Shown here: positions 20,486 through 50,075 of the stretch, one piece after another
Position numbering within the stretch: the first letter of the stretch is position 1
Layout: each line of letters opens with the position of its first letter
Origin: Anaerofustis stercorihominis
GTDB lineage: Bacteria; Bacillota; Clostridia; Eubacteriales; Anaerofustaceae
Direction: 5' to 3'
Length of the DNA stretch: 53,383 bases
Assembly: GCA_015058295.1 (NCBI GenBank)
Contig: SVCP01000009.1
Location: 1 to 53,383 of the forward strand
Translations under genes and position numbers: made by a program
The notes under the pieces: model-generated
Seen by the model: only the letters and a program-made list of their open reading frames with translations
Told to the model about the DNA's origin: nothing
Database searches by the model: none

Positions 20486-20712
20486 AAAAAATCCCTGTAT
20501 AAATACAGGGACGAATAATCCGTGGTTCCACCCAGTTTAGCTTACGCTCACTCATTATATCTTTAACGCAGAAATACGCACCGTCCTACTTTGTTCAGCG
20601 GTGAGCTCGGAAGGGGTTTTCGTAAGGCTTCAAATAAGACGCTTTCAGCATATGCATCTCTCTCTGGAAAAGAAGATTCTTACTACTCGTCTTCGTCACA
20701 GCTTTTGACACA
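20486..20712 (-). promoter_or_regulatory. T-box riboswitch leader of thrS
   Basis: Read on the minus strand, the leader carries the conserved T-box GGGTGGAACCACG (20521-20533), which pairs with the tRNA acceptor end, then a terminator stem TCCCTGTA / TACAGGGA followed by seven T (20485-20511). The AGAGAGA and AGTA-type elements expected of stem I lie near its 5' end. A candidate Thr specifier codon ACC is at 20600-20602. Uncharged tRNA-Thr would stabilise the antiterminator and allow thrS transcription. The element class is secure; the specifier assignment is tentative. Confidence 0.92.
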
Positions 20713-20813: not shown

Positions 20814-20918
20814 ATGCAGATTGTTAGCCATGTGAAAAATAATTTGACGGAAACGGTAATAGAAAATGAGGAGGTTTATGAGATCATCTCATCAGTGGTT
20901 GCGGAGACTGAAGAGTGA
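20814..20918 (+). CDS. 34-codon ORF coupled to the serine recombinase
   Basis: A short acidic peptide starting MQIVSHVKNNL and ending SVVAETEE, with an excellent CGGGAGG 7 bases before its ATG. Its TGA overlaps the GTG start of the recombinase (GTGA), and the recombinase has no ribosome site of its own beyond the GAGACTGAAGAG region. That makes translational coupling likely. It could be a leader peptide or a small partner of the recombinase; no family is recognised. Confidence 0.6.
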   Translation: MQIVSHVKNNLTETVIENEEVYEIISSVVAETEE

Positions 20919-22267
20919 GGGCTGCTCTTTATTGCAGAGTATCCACCGATATGCAGACAGAGGGATATTCCATTGACGCACAGAAAGAACTTCTTGCATC
21001 ATATTGTAAGATAAAGGGTATAAATAAATATTCGTACTATGTGGATGCAGGATATTCGGGAAGCAATATGCTTCGTCCGTCGCTCAGCAAACTTACAGCT
21101 GATTGTAAAGAAAAAAAGATCAGTGTCGTAATCGTTTACAAACTTGACCGACTTTCACGAAGTCAGAAAGATACGCTTTTTCTTATTGAGGAGGTTTTTA
21201 TACCCAACGGAGTGGATTTTATATCCATAAGTGAAAATTTTGATACTGCATCTCCGTTTGGAAAGGCTATGATAGGAATACTCTCCGTATTTGCTCAGCT
21301 TGAGAGAGAAACTATCAGGGAGCGTACCCGCATGGGTATGAAAGAGAGGGTAAAAGCAGGATATTTCCCCGGGGGAGGTAAACTTCCTTATGGATATGAC
21401 TACGACAAGAACCGGGGAATACTTGTTCCGAACGAAAGAAGCGAAGATGTCAGAAAAATGTACGAAATGTATATCAGCGGAATTCCGGTTGGGAGAATAG
21501 CAAAGCATTTCGGCATAAAGTACGATTCTCTCGTGAAAAACATACTGAAAAGCAAAATTAATTGTGGTATTCTTGAGTATAATGGAGAAGAATATCCTGC
21601 ACTTCATAAAGCTATAGTCGACAGAAAGACATATGAGCGTGCCATGGAGATAATGCAGAGAAAAGGCAGGAGCGCTGTCAGAGTAAGTAAAAATCTTTTG
21701 ACGGGAATAGTATACTGTGGTGTCTGCGGCGCAAAAATGCGTTATCAGAAATGGGGAAGTGCCGGGCATAAGATATGCTGTTATTCACAGCAGTCTGATA
21801 AAGAGTATATGATCAGGGATAAAAACTGTGACAATACGAAGCATTTTTCTCATATTATTGAAAATGCTGTTATGAGCGAGCTGTTTAAAATGTCACTTGA
21901 TCCGAACAGAATAAATTCGGAAAACCGCAGACAAAAAGAAGACGATCTGAAATGCCTGCAGAAAAAACTCAGCGAAAACAATAAAAAGATCAATAATCTC
22001 ATTGATTTTATAGCCAACGGAATAGCTGTAGATGAGGTATCTGAGAAACTGCAGAAACTGAAGGCGGAAAATGAAAAAATAGATTCAGAAATACAAAGCA
22101 AAAATAATATTACAAAGAAGATGCATCTGTTCAAAGAAAAAATATCGGGGCTCTCAGATGTATGGACAGAGCTTGATGAACAACAAAAACGCAATATTAT
22201 ACTTAGTCTGGTAGATAAAGTCGTAATAACCTACGACAGGATCGATATATTTTATACATTTGAGTGA
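20915..22267 (+). CDS. Large serine recombinase (site-specific integrase/resolvase family)
   Basis: 450 residues with the usual order: resolvase catalytic domain (1-140) with nucleophile Ser10 in YCRVSTDMQ and the downstream arginines of KLDRLSRSQKD, a recombinase domain (about 150-260), a zinc-ribbon-like part (YCGVCGAKM with later Cys near 300), and a C-terminal coiled coil (about 330-400). The protein looks intact. Such enzymes move phages and conjugative elements or rearrange sporulation genes. Here no phage, conjugation or attachment-site structure is visible next to it, so it may be a domesticated enzyme or a lone remnant. It starts at GTG, overlapping the 34-codon ORF. Confidence 0.93.
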   Translation: MRAALYCRVSTDMQTEGYSIDAQKELLASYCKIKGINKYSYYVDAGYSGSNMLRPSLSKLTADCKEKKISVVIVYKLDRLSRSQKDTLFLIEEVFIPNGVDFISISENFDTASPFGKAMIGILSVFAQLERETIRERTRMGMKERVKAGYFPGGGKLPYGYDYDKNRGILVPNERSEDVRKMYEMYISGIPVGRIAKHFGIKYDSLVKNILKSKINCGILEYNGEEYPALHKAIVDRKTYERAMEIMQRKGRSAVRVSKNLLTGIVYCGVCGAKMRYQKWGSAGHKICCYSQQSDKEYMIRDKNCDNTKHFSHIIENAVMSELFKMSLDPNRINSENRRQKEDDLKCLQKKLSENNKKINNLIDFIANGIAVDEVSEKLQKLKAENEKIDSEIQSKNNITKKMHLFKEKISGLSDVWTELDEQQKRNIILSLVDKVVITYDRIDIFYTFE

Positions 22268-36578: not shown

Positions 36579-37631
36579 ATGATCAAAAAAACTTACAGTG
36601 AACAGGAACTCAGAGTTGTAGACACAAAGCCCGGTTTCGGCGGCGCACCCGGCACACCTATCTACAACACACCGATCTCTTACAGAGAAAATACAAAAGC
36701 TTTGTATTTCGAAAAGGATCCGGCATGGATACATACTTTCAGTGATTCTGACGGAATTCAGTCTACACTTTACAATCTCAATTTCGGACGTCCCCGTGCA
36801 GATAATGACGGTATGATCGACGTATTCGGTGCAAAATGGAAATATGTTGAAACAGCAGGTGGTTCTATTACGGAAACAGGCAGAGAAATTCTCGTAGATG
36901 TAAACGACTGGAAAGAAAAAATCAAAATGCCGGATGTTGAAAGCTGGGACTGGAAAACAGACCTCGCAGGCGTTGACAACAACCCCCGTTATGCTCAGGT
37001 ATTCACATTCGTAAACGGTTTCTGGTTTGAAAGACTTATCTCTCTCATGGACTTCGAAAACGCTGCTATGGCTCTCGTAGACGAAGATCAACAGGACGCT
37101 GTATATGAACTTTTCGGCGCTATGACAGATGTTGCGTGCAAACTCGTAGACCTTATCTGCGAATATGCACCGTCAGTAGACGGCTTCAATGTACATGATG
37201 ACTGGGGCAGCCAGAGAAGCCCGTTCTTCTCAGAAGAAATCGCAAGAAAACTCTTCCTCCCGCACATGAAGAGACTCGTTTCCCACATCAAATCTAAAGG
37301 CAGATTCGCAACACTGCACTCCTGCGGTTGTGTACAGGACAGAGTTGAAATCTTCATCGAAGCAGGATTTGACGGATGGCAGCCGCAGCCGATGAATGAT
37401 GTTGCAAAACTTTATGAACTGTATGGCGACAAGATGGTATTCGAAGCTACTCCGGAAGCTTTTGATATTGAAGATGATGAAGCTGCTGTTGCTTCAGCAA
37501 GAAAATTTGTTGACTACTACTGCAACAAAGGCAAACCGGCAGGTATCGGTACAGGCGGACGCCCGATGATGGCAAGCAAAGCTTTCAGCGAAGAACTTTA
37601 CAGATATTCAAGAGAAAAATATCTCAAATAA
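36579..37631 (+). CDS. URO-D superfamily protein 1 (methyltransferase-like), pair A
   Basis: 350 residues of the uroporphyrinogen-decarboxylase fold. This superfamily includes haem-pathway HemE and the zinc-dependent corrinoid/CoM methyltransferases MtaA, MtbA and CmuA. The conserved blocks shared by all four paralogues here are YNTPISYREN, WFERLISLMDFENAAMAL, HDDWGSQRSPFFS (His206) and TLHSCGC (His247, Cys249), the last matching two of the three zinc ligands of MtaA-type enzymes. The third ligand (Cys near the end) is not evident. The arginines that bind uroporphyrinogen in HemE are not seen at the start. AAGGAGAAA lies before the ATG. Closest relative in the window is the next gene. Confidence 0.85.
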   Translation: MIKKTYSEQELRVVDTKPGFGGAPGTPIYNTPISYRENTKALYFEKDPAWIHTFSDSDGIQSTLYNLNFGRPRADNDGMIDVFGAKWKYVETAGGSITETGREILVDVNDWKEKIKMPDVESWDWKTDLAGVDNNPRYAQVFTFVNGFWFERLISLMDFENAAMALVDEDQQDAVYELFGAMTDVACKLVDLICEYAPSVDGFNVHDDWGSQRSPFFSEEIARKLFLPHMKRLVSHIKSKGRFATLHSCGCVQDRVEIFIEAGFDGWQPQPMNDVAKLYELYGDKMVFEATPEAFDIEDDEAAVASARKFVDYYCNKGKPAGIGTGGRPMMASKAFSEELYRYSREKYLK

Positions 37632-37642
37632 ATCATATTTTT

Positions 37643-37665
37643 CAGCCCGACTGTATGTCGGGCTG
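37643..37665 (+). other. Hairpin between URO-D 1 and URO-D 2 without a T tract
   Basis: Perfect 9-bp GC-rich stem CAGCCCGAC / GTCGGGCTG with a 5-base loop, followed by GTGTATTTG. Lacking a T run, it is more likely an mRNA stabiliser or partial terminator than a full stop. Confidence 0.6.
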
Positions 37666-37681
37666 GTGTATTTGCAGTAAA

Positions 37682-37710
37682 TGTACAGAATTATTTTTTA
37701 TTGTGTACAG
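37682..37710 (+). repeat. Direct repeat TGTACAG upstream of URO-D 2
   Basis: TGTACAG occurs at 37682-37688 and 37704-37710, two helical turns apart and about 53-80 bases before the start codon. A regulator site is possible but unproven. Confidence 0.35.
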
Positions 37711-37762
37711 CTGTATTTTATATTGAACAGAAATAAAATATATAAACAAAAAGGAGAAAATC

Positions 37763-38818
37763 ATGGCAAGAATTAAGAAAGACTTCAGCCCGGAAGAACT
37801 CAGAGTGGTTGGTCAGAAACCCGGCAGAATGCCCCTTGATCTTTACAACACACCGATCTCTTACAGAGAAAACATCAACATGACATATTTTGACAAAGAT
37901 CAGTATTGGGTTCCGTCATTCAGCGAACTCGGAAGCGTTCAGTCTACACTTTACGCTACAAAACTCTCCCGTCCCGGTGCAGACAATGATGGTATGGTGG
38001 ACGTATTCGGCGCAAAATGGAAATGGGTTCCGAGCGCAGGTGGTGCTATTACTGAAGGAGGATCACCGATCTTCACAGATGCAAACGAATGGAAAGACAA
38101 AATCACTATTCCCGATGTGGACACATGGGACTGGGAAGCTGACCTTGCAGATAAACCGGCAGATGCTCGTTTCTCAAATCAGTTTACATTCCTCAATGGT
38201 TTCTGGTTTGAAAGACTTATCACTCTCATGGACTTTGAAAATGCGGCTATGGCTCTCGTAGATGAAGATCAGCAGGATGCTGTAATCGAAATTTTCGAAG
38301 CAATGACAGATATGGGTATCAAGATCGTTGATAATATCTGCAAATACGCTCCGTATATTGATGGATTCTCAATCCATGACGACTGGGGTGCTCAGAGAAG
38401 CCCGTTCTTCTCAGATGAAATCGCAAGAAAGCTCTTCCTTCCGTTCATGAAGGAACTTGTAGGCCACATCCACTCAAAGGGCAGATATGCTACGATCCAC
38501 TCCTGCGGACATATTGAAGACAGACTTCCGATCTTCGTAGAAGCAGGTCTTGACGGATGGCAGCCGCAGAATGCAAATGACATCCACAAGATGTATGATC
38601 TTTACGGTGATAAACTCGTAATCGAAGCATGGCCGGAGGCATTTGACCCTGCTGATGAAAAAGCAGCAAAACAGGCAGCAAGAGATTTCGTTGACTACTT
38701 CTGCAAACCGGGCAAACCGATTATGCTTGGCTACAACGCAGGCGCAGCTCTCAGCAGTAAAGTATTCAAAGAAGAACTTTACGAATACTCAAGAAAACAT
38801 TATCTCAACATGAAATAA
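37763..38818 (+). CDS. URO-D superfamily protein 2 (methyltransferase-like), pair A
   Basis: 351 residues, close paralogue of the preceding gene along its whole length: NTPISYREN, WFERLITLMDFENAAMAL, HDDWGAQRSPFFS (His205) and TIHSCGH (His246, Cys248). The residue after the motif is His where the other three have Cys. The two genes clearly arose by tandem duplication. The substrate is not known; a methyl transfer role is suggested only by the fold and the HxC motif. AAAAGGAGAAAA precedes the ATG. It ends at a bidirectional terminator. Confidence 0.85.
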   Translation: MARIKKDFSPEELRVVGQKPGRMPLDLYNTPISYRENINMTYFDKDQYWVPSFSELGSVQSTLYATKLSRPGADNDGMVDVFGAKWKWVPSAGGAITEGGSPIFTDANEWKDKITIPDVDTWDWEADLADKPADARFSNQFTFLNGFWFERLITLMDFENAAMALVDEDQQDAVIEIFEAMTDMGIKIVDNICKYAPYIDGFSIHDDWGAQRSPFFSDEIARKLFLPFMKELVGHIHSKGRYATIHSCGHIEDRLPIFVEAGLDGWQPQNANDIHKMYDLYGDKLVIEAWPEAFDPADEKAAKQAARDFVDYFCKPGKPIMLGYNAGAALSSKVFKEELYEYSRKHYLNMK

Positions 38819-38832
38819 TTATTTTAAACATC

Positions 38833-38860
38833 AAAACCGTCGGGGATCCGACGGTTTTTT
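38833..38860. terminator. Bidirectional terminator between URO-D 2 and the M3 lipoprotein gene
   Basis: Perfect 11-bp stem AAAACCGTCGG / CCGACGGTTTT with a 4-base loop, A-rich on one side and T-rich on the other. Confidence 0.92.
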
Positions 38861-38874
38861 ATTGTCGTATTTGG

Positions 38875-40494
38875 TTATTGCAGAACATCTTCAAACAAAG
38901 CTTTTACAGAATCTATTCTGCCTTTGCTGAAGGGGCTTTTTAGACCTGCATCATCAAGAAATGCCATAAAATAGCTTTCTTCTGTATCGATGTTATCTGT
39001 GAACAGCTTTTTTCCTTTTCCTGAGCGGTCAAGCTCCATTTCATATATCTGCATTGCTGCATCATTGCTGAGTACATAGCTTATAACATACATAGGATGA
39101 GTGTAATAATGTGATATTCCCACAAATTCACGGTTATCATACCCCACACTTTCAAATCCGTAATCCTCAGCTATATCCTCGTATATATCACGCAGATTAT
39201 CAACTGTCAGTTCATCATCTAAAAGGGAATACAGCTTCAGTTCAAAGTCTGCATATGCTGCCTGTTCCACATATGTGCACAGACTGTCTGCCATTTTATA
39301 TTTCATAAGCTCTTCTGAGTCTTCGGTATAACATAAACTCAGGTATTCCATACCCTGTGAAAATATTTCAGCAACATCGGCTCCCGCATAACTTCCGTAT
39401 GAAAGAAAGTCATTACAGAAATGCCCGAATTCATGCACAAGTGTCAGTTTGTCTGCCTGTATAAGTGAAGAATTCATGAATATAAATGGTTCAGCATAAC
39501 TTGTAAGATATACTTCGAATGCAGAACCGTATTTATTTTCTCCATAAGATATATCATAAAGACCTGCAGTTTGCATAAGCTTAAACGCCATATTTATCTC
39601 TCCACCCATATTATCGGCTGCTTCCTCCAGATATCGGAGAGTTTCTTTTTCGGATGCGTATGAATACGCTGCATTCCAGACATCGGAATCAAATAATTCC
39701 GAGTAAAGAGGGGATAATTCTTTACTTATATCTGCAAGATATGCTTCGACATCTGAGGAATCGTAATCCCTTGCGTAATAGTAATTATTTGCGAACTGTG
39801 TGTAATCATCATATCCCCAGTACTGAGCAATATCCTGTCTTACATTTACAAGATCAATAAGAAGTTCTGCAAGTTCATCGGCACATGCATCATAATATTC
39901 ATCGGATGCAAATTCGTATTCAGAAGATTCTTCCGAAATATCATAATATTCATTCTGTAACTGTGCTTCTTTTGTGAGCAGAGAATTCAGTTCATCGTCC
40001 CACAAGTTTTCACCGTCATATGCTTCAAAATATCCTTCGCCAAAGAATTCCTCTTCAAGCTGATCACGGCAGGGAGATTCTGCAAGCTCGTAATACAGGT
40101 TCTCAAGGGATGCGTCCACCTGAGGTATGTTTTCCGCAAAGAAATTACATTCGTCTTCCCAGTATTCATCGGTCAGGTCGTGACAGTATTTCAGATCTGC
40201 CAGCGAATAATATGTATAAAACCAATCGTATTCGTCGTAATAATCAAAGACGCATTCAAGAATATACTCTGCATCATAGCCTTCTGAGGCTTCGCAGGCT
40301 TTATTATATGCATCCATAACATCATCGGGATCGGGGCGCTTATATACCATATCATCGTATGAAACGACCTCGCCTGTTCCAAGCATTGCTTTTAGCAGAT
40401 TTTCTTTGAAGGAAGCATTTCCCGGTGTACATCCGGACAAAATGAGTATAATTACTGTAAATATTGCAATAATACGTATTTTAGATCTGTTCAT
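38875..40494 (-). CDS. Exported M3-family metallopeptidase lipoprotein
   Basis: 539 residues. A lipoprotein signal has the lipobox LSGC with Cys22, so the enzyme is anchored outside the membrane. The mature part is very acidic and helical and carries the zinc site HEFGH at residues 354-358 (LTLVHEFGHFCNDF), typical of M3 (oligoendopeptidase F/thimet) peptidases. A downstream EIFSQGMEYL supplies the third ligand region. Most M3 enzymes are cytosolic, so this would trim peptides at the cell surface. AGAGGTGA precedes the ATG. Confidence 0.88.
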   Translation of the reverse strand: MNRSKIRIIAIFTVIILILSGCTPGNASFKENLLKAMLGTGEVVSYDDMVYKRPDPDDVMDAYNKACEASEGYDAEYILECVFDYYDEYDWFYTYYSLADLKYCHDLTDEYWEDECNFFAENIPQVDASLENLYYELAESPCRDQLEEEFFGEGYFEAYDGENLWDDELNSLLTKEAQLQNEYYDISEESSEYEFASDEYYDACADELAELLIDLVNVRQDIAQYWGYDDYTQFANNYYYARDYDSSDVEAYLADISKELSPLYSELFDSDVWNAAYSYASEKETLRYLEEAADNMGGEINMAFKLMQTAGLYDISYGENKYGSAFEVYLTSYAEPFIFMNSSLIQADKLTLVHEFGHFCNDFLSYGSYAGADVAEIFSQGMEYLSLCYTEDSEELMKYKMADSLCTYVEQAAYADFELKLYSLLDDELTVDNLRDIYEDIAEDYGFESVGYDNREFVGISHYYTHPMYVISYVLSNDAAMQIYEMELDRSGKGKKLFTDNIDTEESYFMAFLDDAGLKSPFSKGRIDSVKALFEDVLQ

Positions 40495-40583
40495 ATGTCA
40501 CCTCTTTTTTATATTTTATCATATGCTCTGTTTGTAAACAACTCTCAGTAATATTAAATGAACTCCGCAGTTATAAAGTAAAA

Positions 40584-40605
40584 GCCACCGGAAATATCCG
40601 ATGGC
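40584..40605 (-). terminator. Terminator after the YwaF-type gene
   Basis: On the minus strand, stem GCCATCGGA / TCCGGTGGC (one G-T pair) with a 4-base loop, then TTTTACTTT. Confidence 0.75.
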
Positions 40606-40611
40606 AATATA

Positions 40612-41355
40612 TCAGGCTGTTTTTTTCTTCTTTTTTGATATGATTTCAAATGGTAGAAACATAAGTATCCATACAACGAATATAAGTGCCGCAAATCCGA
40701 CGAGATATCCCGGATTTCCCATAACTTCTCCCATAATTTCCAGCGGAGAATTTTCCTGAGGTCGGTTTATAAACATGAAATTCGTACCGGCAATCATATT
40801 GAATATGTAAATAAACGGAGCAATCGCAAGAAGTGCGCCTGCACACTTCGGAAGCATTTTCATATCGGGCTTTATATCCCCCGCATACAAAAGCATCACA
40901 GGATATGCAAACAGCTGAATATGCACTGTGAACGAGTGTATATGCGAAAAATTAACAACGGGCAGTGTCCACCACATAGGGAAAAGCAATGCTACAAGTG
41001 CTCCGGGCATACACAATGCATATAACATCTGGTTTTCGAGCTCTTTGTTGTAATATGCGTGGTGCAGTATGACAAATACATTTATACTGCACAGGTGCAA
41101 CGGAAGATAATCAAGTGTGTATCTGCCACCAATAAGCAGACATACCGTTTCAAAGATGTCGTTTGCCACAATGCTCCATGCAAATATTTTCCTGTATTTC
41201 AATCTTTTTTCTGCAGACTGTTTTTTATATGTAACGCACAATACCGCAGTTGATATTGCTGCGATTGCAAGCCACGCAATGTGTATCGGTCCGTAGTGTG
41301 TAAACCCCAGTCCTTCCGGAATTGTTTCCATTGTCTCTAAAAAGTATCTGAACAT
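40612..41355 (-). CDS. TIGR02206/YwaF-family membrane protein
   Basis: 247 residues with about six or seven membrane helices and the family signature LPLHLCSINVF near residue 85, plus HIQLFAYPVML. YwaF-type proteins are found widely in Firmicutes and have no established role. AGGAG lies 6 bases before the ATG. It is transcribed in the same direction as the M3 lipoprotein gene but is separated from it by a terminator. Confidence 0.85.
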   Translation of the reverse strand: MFRYFLETMETIPEGLGFTHYGPIHIAWLAIAAISTAVLCVTYKKQSAEKRLKYRKIFAWSIVANDIFETVCLLIGGRYTLDYLPLHLCSINVFVILHHAYYNKELENQMLYALCMPGALVALLFPMWWTLPVVNFSHIHSFTVHIQLFAYPVMLLYAGDIKPDMKMLPKCAGALLAIAPFIYIFNMIAGTNFMFINRPQENSPLEIMGEVMGNPGYLVGFAALIFVVWILMFLPFEIISKKKKKTA

Positions 41356-41490
41356 TATAGTCTCCTGTGTTTATATCTGACGAATGTAATAATACCACAT
41401 TTCTGTGTAAAGACAAGACTTATTTATGTTTTTATCGTAATAAAATATAAACATATACATCAATTTTTCTGATAAATCAGCGATTTTCTA

Positions 41491-41519
41491 TTGACATAAC
41501 AGTGCTGTGGGACTATACT
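41491..41519 (+). promoter_or_regulatory. Promoter for typA
   Basis: Consensus TTGACA and TATACT with exactly 17 bases between, about 30 bases before the start codon. Confidence 0.85.
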
Positions 41520-41549
41520 GTTTAGGTTGTTATACAATATGGAGGAAAT

Positions 41550-43367
41550 ATGATAAGAGACGATTTACGAAATATCGCAATCATCGCTCACGTTGACCAC
41601 GGAAAGACAACTCTTGTTGATGAAATGCTCAAACAGTGCGGCGAATATCGTGAAAATCAGGCTATTACCGAGAGAGTAATGGATTCTAATGACCTTGAAA
41701 AGGAAAGGGGTATTACTATCCTTGCGAAGAATACATCCGTTGAATACAAGGGCATAAAAATAAATATCGTTGACACACCGGGACACGCAGACTTCTCGGG
41801 AGAAGTAGAGCGTATCTTTAAAATGGTAGATGGTGCAATCCTTCTCGTAGATGCTGCGGAAGGACCTATGCCGCAGACAAGATTCGTTCTTGAACGTGCT
41901 CTCGAAATGAAAAAGAGCATTATTATTGTAATAAATAAAATAGACAGACCGGATGCAAGAATTTCTGAAGTCATTGATGAAATCCTTGAGCTTCTCATTG
42001 ATCTTAATGCGGATGATAATCAGCTGGACAGTCCTATCGTTTATTGTTCAGCAAGAGCAGGTACAGCTACCCTTGAAGAAGGTGGAGAAGGCACAGATCT
42101 TATTCCTCTTTTAGATACTATCATTTCACATGTTCCGTGTCCGGAAGGAGATGAGACGCTTCCTGTTCAGATGCTTGTTTCTTCCATCGACTATAATGAT
42201 TATGTGGGAAGAATCGCAATCGGCTCAATCGAAAGAGGTGTTCTCAGACAGAATCAGGAAGTATATATCACTGATTATCATGAAAAACACGCTCCGTATA
42301 AAGCGAAGATAACAAATATGTATCAGATCGATGGCCTTAAGCGTACGGCTGTTACAGAGGCAAGTGTAGGTGATATCGTTTGTATTTCAGGTGTTGCTGA
42401 TATTACTATCGGAGACACTATCTGTGATGTGAACAACATCGAGCCGCTTCCGTTTGTAAAGATCGGTGAACCGACCATCGAAATGCTTTTCTGTGTAAAT
42501 GACAGCCCGTTTGCAGGAAAAGAAGGCAAATTCGTCACATCTCGTCAGATCAGGGACAGACTTTATAAAGAACTTCTCAAGGATGTATCCCTCAGAGTTA
42601 CTGATACAGACAGTACAGACCGTTTCCTCGTCGCAGGAAGAGGTGAAATGCATCTTTCTATCCTCATTGAAACAATGAGACGAGAAGGCTATGAATTTGC
42701 TGTAGGCACACCGAGAGTTCTTGTTAAGGAAATCGACGGAGTGAAATGCGAGCCGTATGAAAAACTCATTATCGATGCCCCGAAAGACAGTGTGGGCACT
42801 GTTATCGAAAGTCTCGGTATGAGAAAAGGTGAGCTTGAGAATATTATCCCCATGGGAAGCAGAAGCCGTCTGAGCTACATTATCCCGTCAAGAGGTCTTC
42901 TCGGATACAGAAGCAGATTCCTTACAGAAACAAAAGGTGAAGGCATTATGAACTCTGTATTTGACAGCTACAGGGAATATAAAGGCGATATCGCAAGAAG
43001 ATATACAGGCTCTCTCATTGCGCATGAAACAGGCACTTCCATTACTTACGGTCTTTTCAACGCACAGGAAAGAGGAAGTCTCTTTATTCCGGCAGGTGTT
43101 GAAGTTTATGAAGGTATGGTCGTCGGAGAATCTCCGAAGAGTGGAGATATTGTTGTTAATGTATGCAAGAGAAAACACGTTACAAATATCCGTGCAGCAG
43201 GCAGCGACGATGCACTCAGACTTGTTCCGTATAAGAAAATGTCTCTTGAACAGTGCCTTGAATTCCTTGGCGAAGACGAACTTCTCGAAGTAACACCGAA
43301 AAATCTCCGTATCAGAAAAACTATTCTCAATAAGGAACTTCGTCTTAAGAGCGAAAGGCATCACTGA
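41550..43367 (+). CDS. typA: Ribosome-associated GTPase TypA/BipA
   Basis: Translational GTPase (605 residues, normal length) that binds the 70S ribosome and helps subunit assembly and stress responses. G1 is AHVDHGKTTL, G2 ERGITI, G3 DTPGHADF, G4 NKID. The EF-G-like domains III and V and the BipA-specific C-terminal domain follow (IIPSRGLLGYRSRF). TGGAGG lies 7 bases before the ATG. A 62-residue ORF follows after two bases. Confidence 0.97.
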   Translation: MIRDDLRNIAIIAHVDHGKTTLVDEMLKQCGEYRENQAITERVMDSNDLEKERGITILAKNTSVEYKGIKINIVDTPGHADFSGEVERIFKMVDGAILLVDAAEGPMPQTRFVLERALEMKKSIIIVINKIDRPDARISEVIDEILELLIDLNADDNQLDSPIVYCSARAGTATLEEGGEGTDLIPLLDTIISHVPCPEGDETLPVQMLVSSIDYNDYVGRIAIGSIERGVLRQNQEVYITDYHEKHAPYKAKITNMYQIDGLKRTAVTEASVGDIVCISGVADITIGDTICDVNNIEPLPFVKIGEPTIEMLFCVNDSPFAGKEGKFVTSRQIRDRLYKELLKDVSLRVTDTDSTDRFLVAGRGEMHLSILIETMRREGYEFAVGTPRVLVKEIDGVKCEPYEKLIIDAPKDSVGTVIESLGMRKGELENIIPMGSRSRLSYIIPSRGLLGYRSRFLTETKGEGIMNSVFDSYREYKGDIARRYTGSLIAHETGTSITYGLFNAQERGSLFIPAGVEVYEGMVVGESPKSGDIVVNVCKRKHVTNIRAAGSDDALRLVPYKKMSLEQCLEFLGEDELLEVTPKNLRIRKTILNKELRLKSERHH

Positions 43368-43369
43368 TC

Positions 43370-43558
43370 ATGAATACGGAAGAACTTATCCTCAGCGGAT
43401 TCTGTAAAACAAAGAATCTTACCAATACTGTCATAATCGAAGTTGAGGCAGGGGAGAATGGAAATACTATCGTGTATGCAAACTGCAAATATACGAAGTG
43501 TGAACATTTCACTGTATGCGAGATTATGAAAAATGCTGCAAATTATGAATTTAAATAA
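43370..43558 (+). CDS. Small Cys-containing protein downstream of typA
   Basis: 62 residues, starting two bases after the typA stop and ending at a good terminator, so probably a true operon member. Four Cys occur (FCKT, NCKYTKCEHF, VCEI); the last three, with the nearby His, could bind a metal. There is no membrane segment and I recognise no family. Confidence 0.6.
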   Translation: MNTEELILSGFCKTKNLTNTVIIEVEAGENGNTIVYANCKYTKCEHFTVCEIMKNAANYEFK

Positions 43559-43561
43559 ACA

Positions 43562-43590
43562 AAAGGCATCCGAATGATGCCTTTATTTTT
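43562..43590 (+). terminator. Terminator after the typA operon
   Basis: Perfect 9-bp stem AAAGGCATC / GATGCCTTT with a 5-base loop, then ATTTTT. Confidence 0.85.
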
Positions 43591-43604
43591 ATGATCTGAA
43601 TAAT

Positions 43605-43637
43605 AAAAAAGGAACAGTCTGACTGACTGTTCCTTTT
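43605..43637 (-). terminator. Terminator after the GPH symporter gene
   Basis: Perfect 13-bp stem AAAAGGAACAGTC / GACTGTTCCTTTT with a 5-base loop. The minus-strand transcript ends in TTTTTTATT. Confidence 0.9.
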
Positions 43638-43661
43638 ATGTATATCGTATTTACCGATAAA

Positions 43662-45074
43662 TTAAGCCTGAGCGAGCTTTTCAGCAGCTTCTCTTTCAGC
43701 GTTTGCTTTAGCGTACATAGCAGCTTCTTCGTCTGTAAGTTTGTAGAGGAGGAAGATGATTGCTGCAGCAGCGAGACAGCAAATAGCCGGTACGAATGTG
43801 ATAACGCTCATGAAGCCTTTGAGTGAAGCGAATGTACCAACGCCATCAACTACTTCATAACCTGTCCATGCAAGAGCGAAGCCCTGGAGTGTACCACCTA
43901 CAGCGAAACCGATTTTTGTCGGCCAGTTCATTACTGTAACAGCCATTGTTCTGTTGTCAACGCCTGTTGTGTAGTAACCGTATTCACCACAGTCGAGGTA
44001 GTAGTTAGCCATGAACGGTGTGTACATGTACATAGCTGACTGGCATACGCACATACCAACTGTCATAACAACGAGGTTAGCTTCGTTTGCTGAGTTAAGA
44101 CCAAACATACCCATGAATGAAAGACCTGCAGCGTAGATTACCCAACCTGCAACGAGTGACATTTTCTTACCGATCTTTCTACCGATCTTCGGAACTACCA
44201 TAGATGCGAGGAATGCACAGACAGCTCTTGCTGTAAGAGGAATTGTCATAAATGCGAAGTTTCCTGTAGCTTTGAAGTAGTATGATGTAAGGCCTGTGTA
44301 GAGCTGTGTACCTACTGTGAATACTGTGAAGCCGGCGAAAACAATGAGCATCTGTTTGTTTGTAACAACTGAAGAGATCATCTGTTTTACTGTCGGAGAC
44401 TGTTTCTTAGCAGCACCTGCCGGTGTTGGCGGATCGTACGGCTGACCTTCTTTGATGAAGATAACGTTGCAGACAACGAATGAAAGTGAGAATACGAGTG
44501 TTACGAGGAAGTAACCGAGTGACGGTGAACCTGTAAGCTTTTCAACGAACTGGATACACGGAAGTGTGATTGCTGAAGAAATGATTGAAACTGCAGCACC
44601 AACCTGAGCCTGACGAGCTGTGAGAGTTTTTCTTGCTTCCATGTCTGCACCTGCAAGCTTCGGAATAAGAGCAGCTCTTGATGTTGCGTTGAAGTTCATT
44701 GAACCATGGAACATTACGTAGAATACGCAAACGATGAGAAGTCTTACTGTCGGGCTTGAGATGAACGCTGTTGTGTCGAGCATCTGAACGATGTTACCGA
44801 AGAAGAGTGTAGCTGTGAGAAGTCTGATCCATGACATGTATTTACCATGTTTCATGTTGACTTTTTCGATGATACCGCCGGCAACGATAGAGATGATGAA
44901 GTCGAATGTCTTCGCAATACCCATACCTGTTCCGAGAGCTACCGGGTTGATTCCGAGATAGTCTGTGCAGAACATCATAAGGTACATTGTCGGAACTGTG
45001 AATGCCATTGTCAACGTACCCTGACCGAGAGCGTAGGAGTTGACAAGAAGCGGAGAAAGTTTTTTGTTTTCCAT
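43662..45074 (-). CDS. GPH-type sodium/sugar symporter (MFS_2 family)
   Basis: 470 residues with 12 membrane helices. The N-terminal signature YLMMFCTDYLGINP, followed by KTFDFIISIVAGG and then HGKYMSWIRL, is typical of glycoside-pentoside-hexuronide:cation symporters (MelB/XynB-like). It would carry a glycoside or related solute with Na+ or H+. It has its own promoter, lies between URO-D paralogues, and points the same way as URO-D 3. It may therefore import the substrate of that system, although this is inference. AAGGAG lies 8 bases before the ATG. Confidence 0.88.
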   Translation of the reverse strand: MENKKLSPLLVNSYALGQGTLTMAFTVPTMYLMMFCTDYLGINPVALGTGMGIAKTFDFIISIVAGGIIEKVNMKHGKYMSWIRLLTATLFFGNIVQMLDTTAFISSPTVRLLIVCVFYVMFHGSMNFNATSRAALIPKLAGADMEARKTLTARQAQVGAAVSIISSAITLPCIQFVEKLTGSPSLGYFLVTLVFSLSFVVCNVIFIKEGQPYDPPTPAGAAKKQSPTVKQMISSVVTNKQMLIVFAGFTVFTVGTQLYTGLTSYYFKATGNFAFMTIPLTARAVCAFLASMVVPKIGRKIGKKMSLVAGWVIYAAGLSFMGMFGLNSANEANLVVMTVGMCVCQSAMYMYTPFMANYYLDCGEYGYYTTGVDNRTMAVTVMNWPTKIGFAVGGTLQGFALAWTGYEVVDGVGTFASLKGFMSVITFVPAICCLAAAAIIFLLYKLTDEEAAMYAKANAEREAAEKLAQA

Positions 45075-45211
45075 TATGAGGACTCCTTATAAAAAATATG
45101 TTTCGGCATTTCAGATTTTCAATGAGACAATAGGCTGACTAACTATCGCCCGCAACACTGATGTGTTATATTTTTTTTGACGCAATTCAAAATCTGTAAT
45201 GCACTTTTCGA

Positions 45212-45240
45212 ATTATAAAGCTGAATATAAAAAAAGTCAA
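45212..45240 (-). promoter_or_regulatory. Promoter for the GPH symporter
   Basis: On the minus strand, TTGACT and consensus TATAAT with 17 bases between. Transcription would start near 45205, leaving a 130-base leader. An inverted repeat, ACTGCA / TGCAGT at 45272-45289, lies about 70-85 bases upstream of the start and could be an activator site. Confidence 0.75.
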
Positions 45241-45616
45241 CCTGTCATTTGTCGGAAAAAGAAGGCCTGAAAACTGCACAATGTTGCAGTAAAAGGTGTA
45301 TTCAAAATTTTGTATTAATTTATCGAAATATAATAATTTTCAGTAAATTTAATAAATGAGACGTTTTCAAGGTATATGCTTATAAAGAAAAATACATATG
45401 GATTTTGCCCATATAAATTTAATATATTTGTTTGTATCTGATTATATGGATATTTTCTCCAAAATTACTGTAATTACGGATTTTTATCAGAGAAAACGGA
45501 GAAATCAGCATGTGAAAATTTTTTATGAAGAAAAAAATATAAATAAATTGTGATTTTTTTATTGATTTGTGCCGGACATTCTTAACCGGACTTCAAAAAA
45601 ATTGGTCTATCCATAA

Positions 45617-45643
45617 GAAAACTCCCGGAATTTTCCGGGAGTT
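45617..45643 (-). terminator. Terminator after URO-D 3
   Basis: Near-perfect palindrome AACTCCCGGAA / TTCCGGGAGTT. The minus-strand transcript continues TTTCTTATGG. Confidence 0.75.
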
Positions 45644-45668
45644 CATATTATGTATTGAACATAAACTA

Positions 45669-46742
45669 TTATTTAGCGTAAGCGATTCTGCTCTGTCTGT
45701 AGAGAGCTTCAGCAAATTTCGGGTGAGCGCCTCTGAGTGAAGCGTAAATCGGGTATTTGCTGTATTTTTCAACGTATGCTTTAGCAGCTTCTTCAACTTC
45801 TTCGTCTGTAGCGTCTGCCGGGAGAACCGGAGCTTCGATACCGAGCATGATGTCTTTGCCGTATTTTTCATAAAGCATATCTTTGTCGTTCATCGGCTGA
45901 CCTGACCAGATGTCAACACCGATATCGATCATTGCAGGAACGAGGAGTTCGTTGCATCCGCAGGAGTGGAGCTGGAAGATAAGGCCGTTTTCATGGCAGA
46001 AGTCAGCAACTTTCTTGATGTGCGGAACGATCATTTCACGGCATGTAGCGAGTGAGAAGAACGGTGAACGCTGTGTTCCCCAGTCATCGTGGAAGAGAAC
46101 TTCACATACGTTTGCGCCTTCCATGTACTTTTTGATCATAGCAATGTACATATCAGCGAGTTTGTCGAAGAGATCATGGATAGCATCCTGCTGATCTTCA
46201 TCGATTACTGCCATAGCAGCGCCTTCGAAGTCCATGAAAGAGATGAGTCTTTCGAACATACCGTTCTGGAAGCAGCATCCGACAACTCTTGTTTCATCTT
46301 TGAACGGAGCGTTGAGTTCAGCCATTTCGTTCCACGGCATAGCATCGATATCCGGGAATGTGATCTTGTCATACCATTCGTTTGCATCAGAGAGTGTCGG
46401 ATCACCCGGTTTAACCATAGAACCGCCAGCTACCGGTACGAATACCCATTCAATACCGAAAAGGTCCGGTCCGCCTTTTTCTTCGAGAGGCTGTGCAGGA
46501 CCAAGGTCTCTTACTTCAGCACGAGCTACATGGTCAAGGTTAACTCTTGATTCGATGTTAACGATATCGTTTGAGTTTGCCATCCACATCGGTTCGCCTT
46601 TGAGGGCTTTGAACATATTTTCTCTTACTGTGATCGGTGTGTTCCAGATGGGTACTTCAGCCGGAGCATTGTCAACTGATTTGATGTTAAGGAATGTGCC
46701 TTTAACTTCTAATTCAGCAGGATTGAAAGGTACTTTTGTCAT
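45669..46742 (-). CDS. URO-D superfamily protein 3 (methyltransferase-like), pair B
   Basis: 357 residues from the ATG at 46742, which has AAGGAGAAAA upstream; the frame extends 21 more codons without a site. It has the URO-D fold with WNTPITVREN, MFERLISFMDFEGAAMAV, FHDDWGTQRSPFFS (His218) and QLHSCGCNELLVPAM (His259, Cys261). It is much closer to URO-D 4 than to 1 and 2: both share VNLDHVARAEV and VPVAGGSMVKPG. No Cys is found in the last 90 residues, so a complete MtaA-type zinc site is doubtful. Substrate unknown. Confidence 0.85.
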   Translation of the reverse strand: MTKVPFNPAELEVKGTFLNIKSVDNAPAEVPIWNTPITVRENMFKALKGEPMWMANSNDIVNIESRVNLDHVARAEVRDLGPAQPLEEKGGPDLFGIEWVFVPVAGGSMVKPGDPTLSDANEWYDKITFPDIDAMPWNEMAELNAPFKDETRVVGCCFQNGMFERLISFMDFEGAAMAVIDEDQQDAIHDLFDKLADMYIAMIKKYMEGANVCEVLFHDDWGTQRSPFFSLATCREMIVPHIKKVADFCHENGLIFQLHSCGCNELLVPAMIDIGVDIWSGQPMNDKDMLYEKYGKDIMLGIEAPVLPADATDEEVEEAAKAYVEKYSKYPIYASLRGAHPKFAEALYRQSRIAYAK

Positions 46743-46841
46743 TTTCGTTTTCTCCTTAGTGATAAATATTTTTAAATCTCGTCCGATTAAAAACACAACA
46801 AACAATGTTTAACAGACTTAATTCAATATTCCTATGCATTC

Positions 46842-46847
46842 ATTATA
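46842..46847 (-). promoter_or_regulatory. -10 box for URO-D 3
   Basis: Consensus TATAAT on the minus strand, about 100 bases before the start codon. The -35 is poor, which would fit an activator-dependent promoter. Confidence 0.5.
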
Positions 46848-47007
46848 ACAATTCAGAATATTTTTGCTATCCGAACTCTGTATAAAATAAATTGATTTTT
46901 ATTGACACATTGACAGTAAGAAAATGTAAGATGAATTTTAATATGCACCGACAAAGTGTTGTAGTAGCTGTTTCATTCAATATTTTAGATTGATGCTGAA
47001 AATCAAA

Positions 47008-47031
47008 GATACCCGCATATATGCGGGTATC
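47008..47031 (-). terminator. Terminator after the PucR-type regulator gene
   Basis: Palindrome GATACCCGCATA / TATGCGGGTATC; on the minus strand followed by TTTGATTTTC. Confidence 0.7.
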
Positions 47032-47046
47032 CGGATAGTGTGCTTA

Positions 47047-48588
47047 TCATGCGAGAGACATATCATAATGATCTTCAAGAAGATAGAAAGACAACATTAT
47101 ATGAAGTCTTGTTCTCTCATCGTCAAGATCAATGTTGCATATTTCTTCTATACGTTTGATCCTTGCGGCAAAAGTGGATCGGTGTATAAACAGCGAATCA
47201 CTCGTCTGTGTTGCGTTGTACTTATTCAGAAAGAAAAGACGAAGAGTCTTGCAGAATTCCGTATTTTCCTTTTCGTCATATTGGATAAGAGTTCTTATAG
47301 CCGGGTGAAGTACGTCTTTCAGCTCGAAATCCAGGTAACAGTGTTTGAGCATATAATCCAGAGAATATTCTCTGAATCTGTAGTGATTCTCCGGAGCTCC
47401 GCTTTCCTTGCCATACTGGTATGCCAATACAGCCTGATTGTAGTATGTACGCAGATTGTGAAAATTATCAAATACGTTGCTCGCTCCGGCTTTTGCTTTC
47501 AAATTTCCGAGGACAACTTCAAATTCTTTGCCGAACTGTTCCTCGGTTATATCTGCCGGCTTGGAGCAGTTGACTACCCAGACGATTCCTTTATCTGTTA
47601 CAACGCCTCTTGTAGAGCCCATATGAACCCTGTTCCACTTGTTTTCGAGGAATGTGGCAATATATGCAGATTTGATGGCAATGTTTACATCCTCTTCATA
47701 CGGAATATAGTAAACCGCATATTTATCATCCGGTTTCCACTGAACAGAGTTGAGTGCCGATGTGATCTCATTGTAATCATATGTATCATCTCCGTTTATG
47801 AGGGAGCGGATGATTTCCTGCATAGATTCGTATGAAGCAGAACGCATGGGCGATACGGCAAATCGTTCATACAGTGTCTCGAAATGCCTTGCAAATATGC
47901 GGAACAGTTGTTTGTCCGCAACGGTGATTTCGTTTGTGTAATCGCTTATGGCGATCAGTTTCCCCCTGTAATCGGAATTGTAGAAAATGTTAAAATGCAT
48001 GCCGATCTTTCTTACGGAAGGATTATCAAACAACTCGACTTCACCTTTTTCCAGTGTATCGGAAAGACTTGAATCGGAGAGAAGCGTATTTATAAGCACC
48101 TGATTGTTCTCGCTGAGCATATGTTTGTCTCCGAGTTCCGGAGTAAGTGCTATAGGAGTAAACCTGTTGTTCAGAAGAACGAGAGAAAATCTCAGATGCT
48201 GTCTTCCCACAGAAAACAACCTGTCGATATCCATATCTTTAAGAGCTATTCTTGCCATCTCGTCATCCCAGTATGTAAGCGTCTGGAAAATAAGCTGAAT
48301 CTGATTGAACAGAACGTTTATGGAAACACTTTCGTCCACGATGATTATATCTGCTTTGATGTCGGTATAGTCAAACTCCGGATAACCGATAGAGACAATC
48401 GTGGACAGGTGAATATCACCCAGTGATATATCTTTTCCGTAACAAATGTACATGTAATCCGGATACATTAGTTCACCTGAATAAAGCAAGGGTGCTCTCA
48501 GACCATTGTCACTGAAATTTTCTTTACTTTTCTTTGGCGCAAATATGCTTGGTAACTGCTGATATACCATACTTGCCGTAACTTTCAT
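47047..48588 (-). CDS. PucR/CdaR-family transcriptional regulator
   Basis: 513 residues from the ATG at 48588, with GGAGA 7 bases upstream; a longer open frame runs across the promoter region and is not used. The C-terminal ~60 residues form the PucR-type helix-turn-helix (NKYNATQTSDSLFIHRSTFA, then RIKRIEEI). The middle carries a GGDEF-like CdaR region, and the N-terminal 250 residues are an unassigned sensor part. Regulators of this family usually activate adjacent catabolic genes on sensing a substrate. It is divergent from URO-D 4 and also lies upstream of URO-D 3 on the same strand, so both pair B genes are likely targets. Confidence 0.85.
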   Translation of the reverse strand: MKVTASMVYQQLPSIFAPKKSKENFSDNGLRAPLLYSGELMYPDYMYICYGKDISLGDIHLSTIVSIGYPEFDYTDIKADIIIVDESVSINVLFNQIQLIFQTLTYWDDEMARIALKDMDIDRLFSVGRQHLRFSLVLLNNRFTPIALTPELGDKHMLSENNQVLINTLLSDSSLSDTLEKGEVELFDNPSVRKIGMHFNIFYNSDYRGKLIAISDYTNEITVADKQLFRIFARHFETLYERFAVSPMRSASYESMQEIIRSLINGDDTYDYNEITSALNSVQWKPDDKYAVYYIPYEEDVNIAIKSAYIATFLENKWNRVHMGSTRGVVTDKGIVWVVNCSKPADITEEQFGKEFEVVLGNLKAKAGASNVFDNFHNLRTYYNQAVLAYQYGKESGAPENHYRFREYSLDYMLKHCYLDFELKDVLHPAIRTLIQYDEKENTEFCKTLRLFFLNKYNATQTSDSLFIHRSTFAARIKRIEEICNIDLDDERTRLHIMLSFYLLEDHYDMSLA

Positions 48589-48925
48589 AATCGATTCTCC
48601 GAACAGATAATTGCAGATAAAGTCCTCTGTGTTAGTCTTATACAGTAACTTATCTGTACACATATTATAACTGAACAATGAAGCTTTGCACAAGAATAAA
48701 TTAAAAAAAATGATGGTATCTTTTACTAAACGAATGTGAAATGAGGATCTTTTTATTATGTGTATGGTTGTATTACGTGAAGTGATAGAGTATCGGTAAA
48801 TATTTGTGTTATATTCACAAAATTCAATTGTGGGCCGGCATGTATTTTCATACTCCCGGGACATACAAATTCCCGTTTATATCTGTTACAATTTGTGTAG
48901 TTTAAACATACAAAAGGAGAATATT
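48589..48925. promoter_or_regulatory. Divergent control region between the PucR-type regulator and URO-D 4
   Basis: Contains a minus-strand TATAAT (48664-48669) for the regulator, and a plus-strand extended -10 TGTTACAAT (48885-48892) for URO-D 4 with a weak -35. Phased repeats TTGTG (48804), CACAA (48816) and TTGTG (48828) lie 12 bases apart in alternating orientation. The first two are the arms of the palindrome TTTGTG-N7-CACAAA. A further TTGTG overlaps the URO-D 4 start region (48893-48897). This is a plausible operator for the regulator. Confidence 0.55.
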
Positions 48926-50026
48926 ATGGTAAAAATACCTTATTCAGATGATGAATTGAAAGTAATCGGTACTCATGTTTCGGCAAATTCAGCTTCACCG
49001 AGATGGAAAGCAATGATGGGAGAAACACCAAAATATAATACTCCCATTACGCCGAAAGAAAATATGTGGAAAGTTATCAACCGCGAAGGTGGTATGTGGA
49101 TTCCTACTGGTAACGATGTAACATATGTTGAATCAAGAATCAACCTTGACCATGTAGCCCGTGCTGAAGTTATGGACCAGGGCGAACCGCAGACAGATGA
49201 AGAAAAAGGCGGAAAAGACCTTTTCGGAATTGAATGGGTATATGTACCTGTTGCCGGCGGTTCAATGGTTAAACCGGGTGAACCGACACTTGCTGATGCA
49301 AACGAATGGTACGACAAGATCACTTTCCCGGATGTTGACGCTATGGACTGGGCAGCTATGGCAGAACTTAATGCTCCGTACAAAGGACAGACAAGATGTG
49401 TAGGTGCAACATTCCAGAATGGTCTTTTCGAAAGACTTATTTCTTTCATGGACTTTGAAGGCGCAGCTATGGCTATTATCGATGAAGATCAGCAGGATGC
49501 TATCCACGCTCTCTTTGCGAAACTCTGCGATATGTATGAATCATTTATCACACATTATCAGGAAGCAATCGGTATCGACAGCGTTATGTTCCATGACGAC
49601 TGGGGCAGCCAGAGAAGCCCGTTCTTCTCACTCGAAACATGTCGCGAAATGCTCGTTCCGTATCTCAAGAGACTTGTTGATTTCTGTCACTCAAAAGGCA
49701 TTTGGTTCCAGCTTCATTCCTGTGGATGTAATGAACTTCTCGTTCCCGCAATGATCGAAGCTGGCGTTGACTACTGGAACGGTCAGGATATGAACGACAA
49801 AGACAAACTTTATGAACTTTACGGCGACAAGATCATCCTCGGTATGCCACTTCCGGCAGTTGCTCCGGATGCAACGGATGAAGAAATCGATGCTGCCGCA
49901 AAAGCGTTTGTTGACAAATTTGCTCCTACATTCAACGAAAAACCGATCATCGTTTCCACATTCTTCGCTCCGAAGAAGATGGTGGAAGCAGTATATAAAT
50001 ACTCAAGAATTGCTCTTGCTCAGTAA
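48926..50026 (+). CDS. URO-D superfamily protein 4 (methyltransferase-like), pair B
   Basis: 366 residues from the ATG at 48926, with AAAAGGAGA 5 bases upstream; the frame is open for 40 more codons but without a site. It is a close paralogue of URO-D 3, with YNTPITPKEN, LFERLISFMDFEGAAMAI, FHDDWGSQRSPFFS (His223) and QLHSCGCNELLVPAM (His264, Cys266). Its promoter region faces the PucR-type regulator gene, so it is the best candidate for substrate-induced control. A methyltransferase role is inferred from the fold; no corrinoid partner is nearby. Confidence 0.85.
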   Translation: MVKIPYSDDELKVIGTHVSANSASPRWKAMMGETPKYNTPITPKENMWKVINREGGMWIPTGNDVTYVESRINLDHVARAEVMDQGEPQTDEEKGGKDLFGIEWVYVPVAGGSMVKPGEPTLADANEWYDKITFPDVDAMDWAAMAELNAPYKGQTRCVGATFQNGLFERLISFMDFEGAAMAIIDEDQQDAIHALFAKLCDMYESFITHYQEAIGIDSVMFHDDWGSQRSPFFSLETCREMLVPYLKRLVDFCHSKGIWFQLHSCGCNELLVPAMIEAGVDYWNGQDMNDKDKLYELYGDKIILGMPLPAVAPDATDEEIDAAAKAFVDKFAPTFNEKPIIVSTFFAPKKMVEAVYKYSRIALAQ

Positions 50027-50042
50027 ACAATGGTTAATAAAC

Positions 50043-50075
50043 AGGCACTCTTCGAAATGAAGAGTGCCTTGTTTA
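50043..50075 (+). terminator. Terminator after URO-D 4
   Basis: Perfect 11-bp stem AGGCACTCTTC / GAAGAGTGCCT with a 5-base loop, then TGTTTATTT. Confidence 0.8.

Follow-up and report, generated by a model that had tools for sequence, protein, structure and literature searches.

Paralogous URO-D-fold proteins of Anaerofustis stercorihominis as predicted methyltransferases of corrinoid-dependent demethylation

The stretch of DNA considered here (the window) comprises 53,383 nucleotides of contig SVCP01000009.1 of Anaerofustis stercorihominis and carries four genes, W1 to W4, encoding URO-D-fold proteins, which are likely to be the substrate-specific methyltransferases (methyltransferase I, MT-I) of corrinoid-dependent demethylation. 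The genes are arranged in two pairs, i.e., W1 and W2 (the A pair) and W3 and W4 (the B pair), the latter found together with a GPH-type symporter and a PucR-type regulator (the B locus). Genes for an M3-type peptidase, TMEM164 and a 605-residue elongation-factor-like GTPase separate the A pair from the symporter and regulator. The two pairs, the symporter and the regulator had been recognized in a preliminary description made from the sequence, and all six open reading frames (ORFs) are intact where it had placed them (Table 1); the HDDWG[SAT]QRSPFFS and HSCG blocks that it had noted are present in all four proteins. W1 and W2 are 63% identical, W3 and W4 62%, and the A and B pairs about 37-42% identical to each other. 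The Pfam URO-D model (cut-off 23.9 bits) scores 32-35 bits with the B pair and 18 bits, i.e., below the cut-off, with the A pair. The symporter matches Pfam MFS_2 at 159 bits (cut-off 27) and reaches 162 bits with the NCBIfam "gph" model, for which the cut-off is 231; the regulator matches Pfam HTH_30/PucR at 57.8 bits (cut-off 27) and attained the cut-off of no named equivalog. The longest ORF of W3 starts at TTG 46805, and the start of the regulator is probably ATG 48588.

Because a sequence-profile search of the PDB returned one 63-residue chance match and zero URO-D structures, assignment of the fold rests on a W4 model computed with AlphaFold2 from 41 relatives (pLDDT 95.5). In a structure search with this model, uroporphyrinogen decarboxylases rank first (E 2.7e-10, TM about 0.6, about 15% identity), which bears out the fold proposed earlier. 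The two most conserved motifs are located at strand ends, where residues 223-226 follow strand 219-223 and residues 264-267 follow strand 260-264. Using W4 numbering, D224, D225 and H264 are invariant in the 129 homologs described below, including those linked to corrinoid proteins, while N290 is retained in 126 and H223 in 108 of them; the corrinoid-protein-linked homologs comprise enzymes with C266 (HSCG-like) as well as D266 (HHSD-like). The third cysteine of the HxC...C zinc ligands is not conserved among the homologs (best column 25%). A few sequences inspected by eye gave no exact match to E-X14-E-X20-H, a zinc motif of ether-cleaving MT-Is.

Known O-demethylase systems are composed of an MT-I (MtvB/OdmB/VdmB), which sets the specificity, a corrinoid protein (CP), a second methyltransferase (MT-II) and an activating enzyme (PMC12915777, PMC13222342). 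The 129 homologs were collected from the A. stercorihominis genome, the sister species, other Eubacteriales and named public contigs, and a 130-row tree was built with a quick method and SH-aLRT support, where CP/MT-II-linked genes of Acetobacterium-like genomes were included as stand-ins for OdmB, VdmB, MtvB, MtoB and CdmB. A CP gene lies within 4 kb of 13 of the 129 homologs, and these CP-linked genes are found in four places in the tree: a short-form clade, a clade of L107, L108 and L118, the gene on C44, and L132 (L, C and G designate loci, contigs and genomes, respectively). The short-form clade holds eight CP-linked genes and three A. stercorihominis paralogs without a CP nearby (two at L050, one at L054). 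The A pair and the C44 gene fall into one 39-row clade (support 99), and the B pair into its 30-row sister clade (support 86). The simplest reading of these relationships is that all 129 homologs are MT-Is. Genes of five HSCG/HCCG-type members (L063, L107, L108, L118 and L132) adjoin both a CP gene and a distinct MT-II gene, an arrangement that speaks against a role of the HSCG type as methyltransferase on the folate or thiol side.

E. coli HemE branches far outside these groups, shows no similarity to the proteins by BLAST, and has an N-terminal RQAGR block that is present in 0 of the 31 paralogs of the A. stercorihominis genome. Identity with HemE is thereby ruled out, in line with the earlier argument against heme synthesis. 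MtaA, MtbA and CmuA, which the preliminary description named as members of this fold, are ruled out as the relevant family by scores of 12-24 bits with the curated models, for which the cut-offs are 235-600, and by the lack of a conserved third cysteine. The idea of several substrate-specific enzymes survives, best read as several methyl-substrate-specific enzymes; nothing was found that points to decarboxylation or to the carboxylated or glycosylated substrate also considered.

Linkage of GPH, PucR-type and URO-D genes is conserved for the B pair, as seen in the sister genome and at L018 and L019, and is not found for the A pair. W4 is 83% identical to its sister ortholog, and the symporter beside that ortholog is 77% identical to the window symporter; W3 orthologs adjoin GPH genes at L013/L088, L018 and L019. 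The gene order is PucR, URO-D, GPH, GPH, URO-D at the sister locus L013/L088 and PucR, URO-D, GPH, URO-D, GPH, URO-D at L018, with a similar order at L019; at L016 and L021 an MFS_1 protein, not GPH, precedes the URO-D pair, the related pair at L016 being that of Hominifimenecus microfluidus CLA-AA-H215. The A. stercorihominis genome harbors exactly two HTH_30 regulators, both beside URO-D genes, and nine MFS_2 transporters, only two of which are so located. PucR-type regulators also accompany URO-D genes at the Acetobacterium-like loci L105, L106, L107, L111 and L113, and GPH-type genes occur with URO-D, MT-II and CP genes at L108, L118 and L131, these symporters being only about 25% identical to that of the window. 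The sister orthologs of W1 (L093:9931-11061, 76% identical) and W2 (L097:7808-8863, 70% identical) reside on separate contigs, without symporter or regulator. Because the A pair is unlinked there, the single pathway of all four genes envisaged earlier is rejected; the A pair is a separate, independent duplication, and the symporter and regulator go with the B pair alone. Three and two more MFS_2/GPH-type symporters are found in tandem at C6:42149-46785 and C52:530-3658, respectively, those on C6 being 56-60% identical to the window symporter.

The A. stercorihominis genome (1.83 Mb in 91 contigs, 98.9% complete), the loci of which were read as separate stretches, yielded 30 copies in a search with a URO-D family profile, or 31 with the divergent URO-D protein L048; 27 of the paralogs are located outside the window. 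Five of these are arranged in tandem on one strand of contig C61 (L067:3308-9712), with a four-gene version in the sister (L089:6149-11042), and most others stand alone amid unrelated genes. Only two corrinoid proteins score above the Pfam cut-off, one on C44 and one on C41. Besides AcsE, there are two MT-II-like genes, one next to the CP on C44 and one in a formate-tetrahydrofolate ligase cluster on C89. The gene order on C44 is URO-D, CbiD, MT-II, CP, and this is the only one of the A. stercorihominis URO-D loci read that has CP and MT-II in the same cluster. Such clustering is usual in the known systems but is not required by the reaction. With CPs encoded in MT-I operons of Acetobacterium-like genomes and of other Eubacteriales, the C44 CP shares 60-65% identity, whereas the C41 CP shares about 50% with the CPs of L133, where the CP adjoins an MT-II, and of L140. 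Two RACo-type activases are encoded (C56 and C23), and no MttB was found in the genome. The presence of two acetyl-CoA synthases, CODH, AcsC, AcsD, AcsE and two formate-tetrahydrofolate ligases makes it very likely that the organism is an acetogen. The acetyl-CoA synthase genes are situated on opposite strands of C6, a few kb apart (L083:11292-18293), and the ligase genes in tandem on C89 (L121:3209-6917).

In a survey of 61 genomes, the numbers of URO-D and CP genes, respectively, were 30 and 2 in A. stercorihominis, at least 34 (the number of candidates scored) and 1 in the sister species RGIG6509 (G001), and 15 and 2, at least 34 and 3, 19 and 2, 17 and 3, and 13 and 2 in other members of the family; a few further members have almost zero URO-D genes. 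The high ratio holds in G000, G004, G005, G006, G010 and G011. The corresponding figures for Acetobacterium-like genomes are 17 and 25, 24 and 19, 20 and 36, 19 and 24 and similar, where the CPs serve other methyltransferase families too. The C44-class MT-II is kept at 64-76% identity in G004, G005, G006, G007, G010 and G011. In G005, an MT-II gene and a CP gene lie paired behind the methyl-branch genes of the Wood-Ljungdahl pathway, in the same orientation; AcsC, AcsD and AcsE come about 10 kb later, and the 37 kb read contain no URO-D gene. A search of open-licence papers turned up no genome described as combining about thirty MT-I genes with only one or two CPs.

From these observations we favor an explanation that, taken as a whole, is probable. 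Each MT-I would have a methylated substrate of its own, probably a small methoxylated compound of plant origin, from which it would transfer the methyl group to a carrier protein with a Co(I) corrinoid. For the most part the MT-Is would be "spokes" that stand alone and rely on a common carrier and a common MT-II encoded at another site, the best candidate being the C44 pair; a RACo-type activase (C23) would keep the carrier reduced, and the methyl-tetrahydrofolate formed would feed into the Wood-Ljungdahl pathway. The symporter of the B locus would probably import the substrate, which points to a polar solute, and the PucR-type regulator would switch on W3, W4 and the symporter. That many substrate-specific MT-Is feed one CP and MT-II, and then acetogenesis, has about an even chance of being correct; a single carrier for many MT-Is fits the likeness of the C44 CP to those of MT-I operons, the gene counts and the arrangement in G005. 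Slightly less certain still is the extension to this family of gut and rumen acetogens, in which 13 to more than 34 mostly stand-alone, substrate-specific MT-Is per genome would share one CP and one MT-II, both belonging to the Wood-Ljungdahl machinery, new substrates being taken on through duplication of an MT-I accompanied by no more than a transporter and a PucR-type switch. Old-yellow-enzyme-type reductases are encoded beside family members at L017 and L027; these would suit unsaturated plant aromatics, a thin link.

Several points weigh against this explanation. The window contains no CP, MT-II or activase gene, the tree includes no named characterized MT-I, and thiol methyltransferases, too, have HSCG as their zinc motif. 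Furthermore, searches of the sister genome G001, which is 95% complete, detected no CP of the C44 class and no MT-II of the kind that goes with it; the single weak CP match in G001 (E 1.1e-8) resembles the C41 CP rather than the C44 class. Either the C44-class pair resides in the missing part of that genome or another carrier, such as a C41-type CP, does the work.

The second of these options belongs to an alternative in which the MT-I role is right and there is no C44 hub, i.e., the spokes use a C41-type CP, or each uses a carrier missed by the CP searches. It would account for the C41-like match retained in G001, and draws on the resemblance of the C41 CP to those of L133 and L140, the former beside an MT-II, and on the further MT-II on C89. 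We regard it as unlikely in view of the retention of the C44-class MT-II across six genomes and of the CP next to it, which is of the class found in MT-I operons.

Less likely again is that the HSCG-type members transfer methyl groups to homocysteine or another thiol, acting on the acceptor side as zinc-dependent, MetE/MtaA-like thiol methyltransferases. This role would explain the HxC motif and why no C44-type CP or MT-II was detected in the sister genome. At L024:7310-12315, two URO-D genes come immediately after those for an amidohydrolase and S-adenosylhomocysteine hydrolase, a hint that some members act in the methionine cycle. It is opposed by the lack of a conserved third cysteine, the low scores with the MtaA/MtbA models and the five HSCG/HCCG-type members whose genes adjoin those for a CP and a distinct MT-II, so that demethylation is the role left for these members.

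The MT-Is might also act on halomethanes or methyl-sulfur compounds instead of methoxyl groups, as do CdmB- or CmuA-like enzymes. CdmB, a close O-demethylase relative, acts on chloromethane and not on methoxylated aromatics, and shows that such relatives may use haloalkanes and need no zinc (PMC13222342). About thirty diverse paralogs and the linkage to a symporter are, however, a better fit to many polar solutes than to a few small gases, and we consider this alternative improbable. That the proteins are decarboxylases, of heme synthesis or of a carboxylated solute, is scarcely credible because the common URO-D fold is outweighed by the missing RQAGR block, the distant position of HemE, the lack of BLAST similarity and the nesting among CP/MT-II-linked genes.

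Returning to the B locus, the terminator-like hairpins behind the regulator, W4 and the symporter and the G+C-rich one behind W3 indicate that it is probably made up of several transcription units and not one operon, and the hairpin after W3 suggests that W3 and the symporter are separate units. No operator was identified in the divergent intergenic region (48589..48925), and the regions upstream of W3 and W4 have nothing convincing in common. The candidate operator upstream of W3 (Table 1) has a near-palindromic form, YTACRACAYNNTGTCR, that is common to the W3 upstream region and that of the C61 array (L067:3166), and similar elements are found upstream of URO-D/GPH genes in L013. It gave three matches at ≤1 mismatch, with 1.0 expected in shuffled sequences, and is therefore considered a lead only.

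Table 1. Features of the window discussed in the text (strand given where assigned).
Feature	Position	Strand	Basis
W1, URO-D-fold protein, 350 aa, predicted stand-alone MT-I, A pair	36579..37631	+	intact ORF
W2, URO-D-fold protein, 351 aa, tandem paralog of W1, A pair	37763..38818	+	intact ORF
MFS_2/GPH-type symporter, 470 aa, B locus	43662..45074	-	Pfam MFS_2
G+C-rich hairpin after W3	45620..45643	-	scan listed + strand; TTTTCTT follows on - strand
W3, URO-D-fold protein, 357 aa, predicted MT-I, B pair	45669..46742	-	intact, ATG start
Candidate operator CTACAACACTTTGTCG, 16 bases, 144 bases upstream of longest W3 ORF	46949..46964	-	weak
Terminator-like hairpin after regulator gene	47007..47032	-	consensus match only
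PucR-type (HTH_30) regulator, 513 aa, between W3 and W4	47047..48588	-	Pfam HTH_30
Divergent intergenic region between regulator and W4, 337 bases, likely control region	48589..48925		position only
W4, URO-D-fold protein, 366 aa, predicted MT-I, B pair, divergent from regulator	48926..50026	+	intact ORF
Terminator-like hairpin after W4	50043..50069	+	hairpin scan

A number of other genes were noted along the way. Genes for DUF2284 proteins (PF10050, predicted metal-binding; L064:11440-11970, L120:2570-3112 and L124:11679-12239) recur beside a URO-D gene, a RACo activase and an MT-II/CP pair, and are possibly a part of the system overlooked so far. CobW/G3E-type GTPases, perhaps involved in metal or corrinoid insertion, are encoded near URO-D genes at Lachnospiraceae-type loci (L019:14107-14757, by Pfam match; L021:14868-15473, by inspection of the sequence). 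Hydantoinase/oxoprolinase-type ASKHA genes are found near AcsE (L126:12228-14264, likewise by inspection) and at L090:73-2058, the latter on the same contig as the sister's ortholog of the C44 MT-I. Elsewhere in the window, positions 31561-34509 encode a 982-residue protein resembling in sequence a B12-dependent (class II) ribonucleotide reductase, and a T-box leader (20504-20708, - strand) precedes a tRNA-synthetase-like gene (18537-20447); a serine-recombinase-like ORF next to the leader (20915-22267, + strand) suggests a mobile element.

The point of interest is the imbalance, at the level of the genome, between MT-Is and carriers. Corrinoid methyltransferase systems, which carry out the demethylation of plant compounds and drugs in the gut, are usually counted as four-gene sets, and surveys that seek complete sets would miss about thirty enzymes in the A. 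stercorihominis genome. The data point to small-genome gut acetogens as broad demethylators, and if one carrier serves all, the manner in which a single corrinoid protein docks with so many MT-Is becomes testable. The B locus also names a candidate PucR-type regulator for systems whose regulation, e.g., of the 26 methyltransferase systems of A. dehalogenans, is largely unexplored (PMC13222342).

Compared with known systems, the window proteins most resemble the MT-Is of bacterial O-demethylase systems: they have the URO-D fold, CP, MT-II, activase and Wood-Ljungdahl genes are all present in the same genome, and the C44 CP and MT-II are of the class found in MT-I operons. They differ in that the window MT-Is stand alone, that 31 URO-D proteins are found with two CPs, whereas known acetogens are described as having a CP for each system, and that only three A. 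stercorihominis paralogs (L050, twice, and L054) fall into the short-form clade rich in CP-linked genes. E. callanderi, for instance, harbors six O-demethylase systems, one of which has two MT-Is (PMC12915777), and D. hafniense DCB-2 has 20 homologs of one O-demethylase corrinoid protein (PMC3306737). CdmB of Acetobacterium dehalogenans, compared by its description, is likewise a UroD-superfamily MT-I of an acetogen and shows that paralogs can switch substrate class (PMC13222342), but cdmBCA is a complete cluster, unlike the window genes, which have no CP or MT-II nearby. MtaA, MtbA and CmuA share the superfamily and the HxC motif and are set apart by the model scores and the third cysteine. 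Type 1 mlp clusters, defined as co-linear genes within 2 kb for at least two Mlps, a CP and a Ram/RACE activase, in a neighborhood that lacks a folate methylase, also place several UroD-superfamily proteins in genomes of anaerobic Bacillota (PMC10418091); they represent a different, MtaA-like lineage, and the window lacks the CP and activase. The regulator is similar to PucR/CdaR-type regulators of catabolic genes in its C-terminal HTH_30 domain and its position between target-like genes, and dissimilar in reaching no named equivalog cut-off. Overall, the window locus is a further member of a known enzyme class, and the imbalance between MT-Is and carriers would be a variant of known chemistry and not a new kind.

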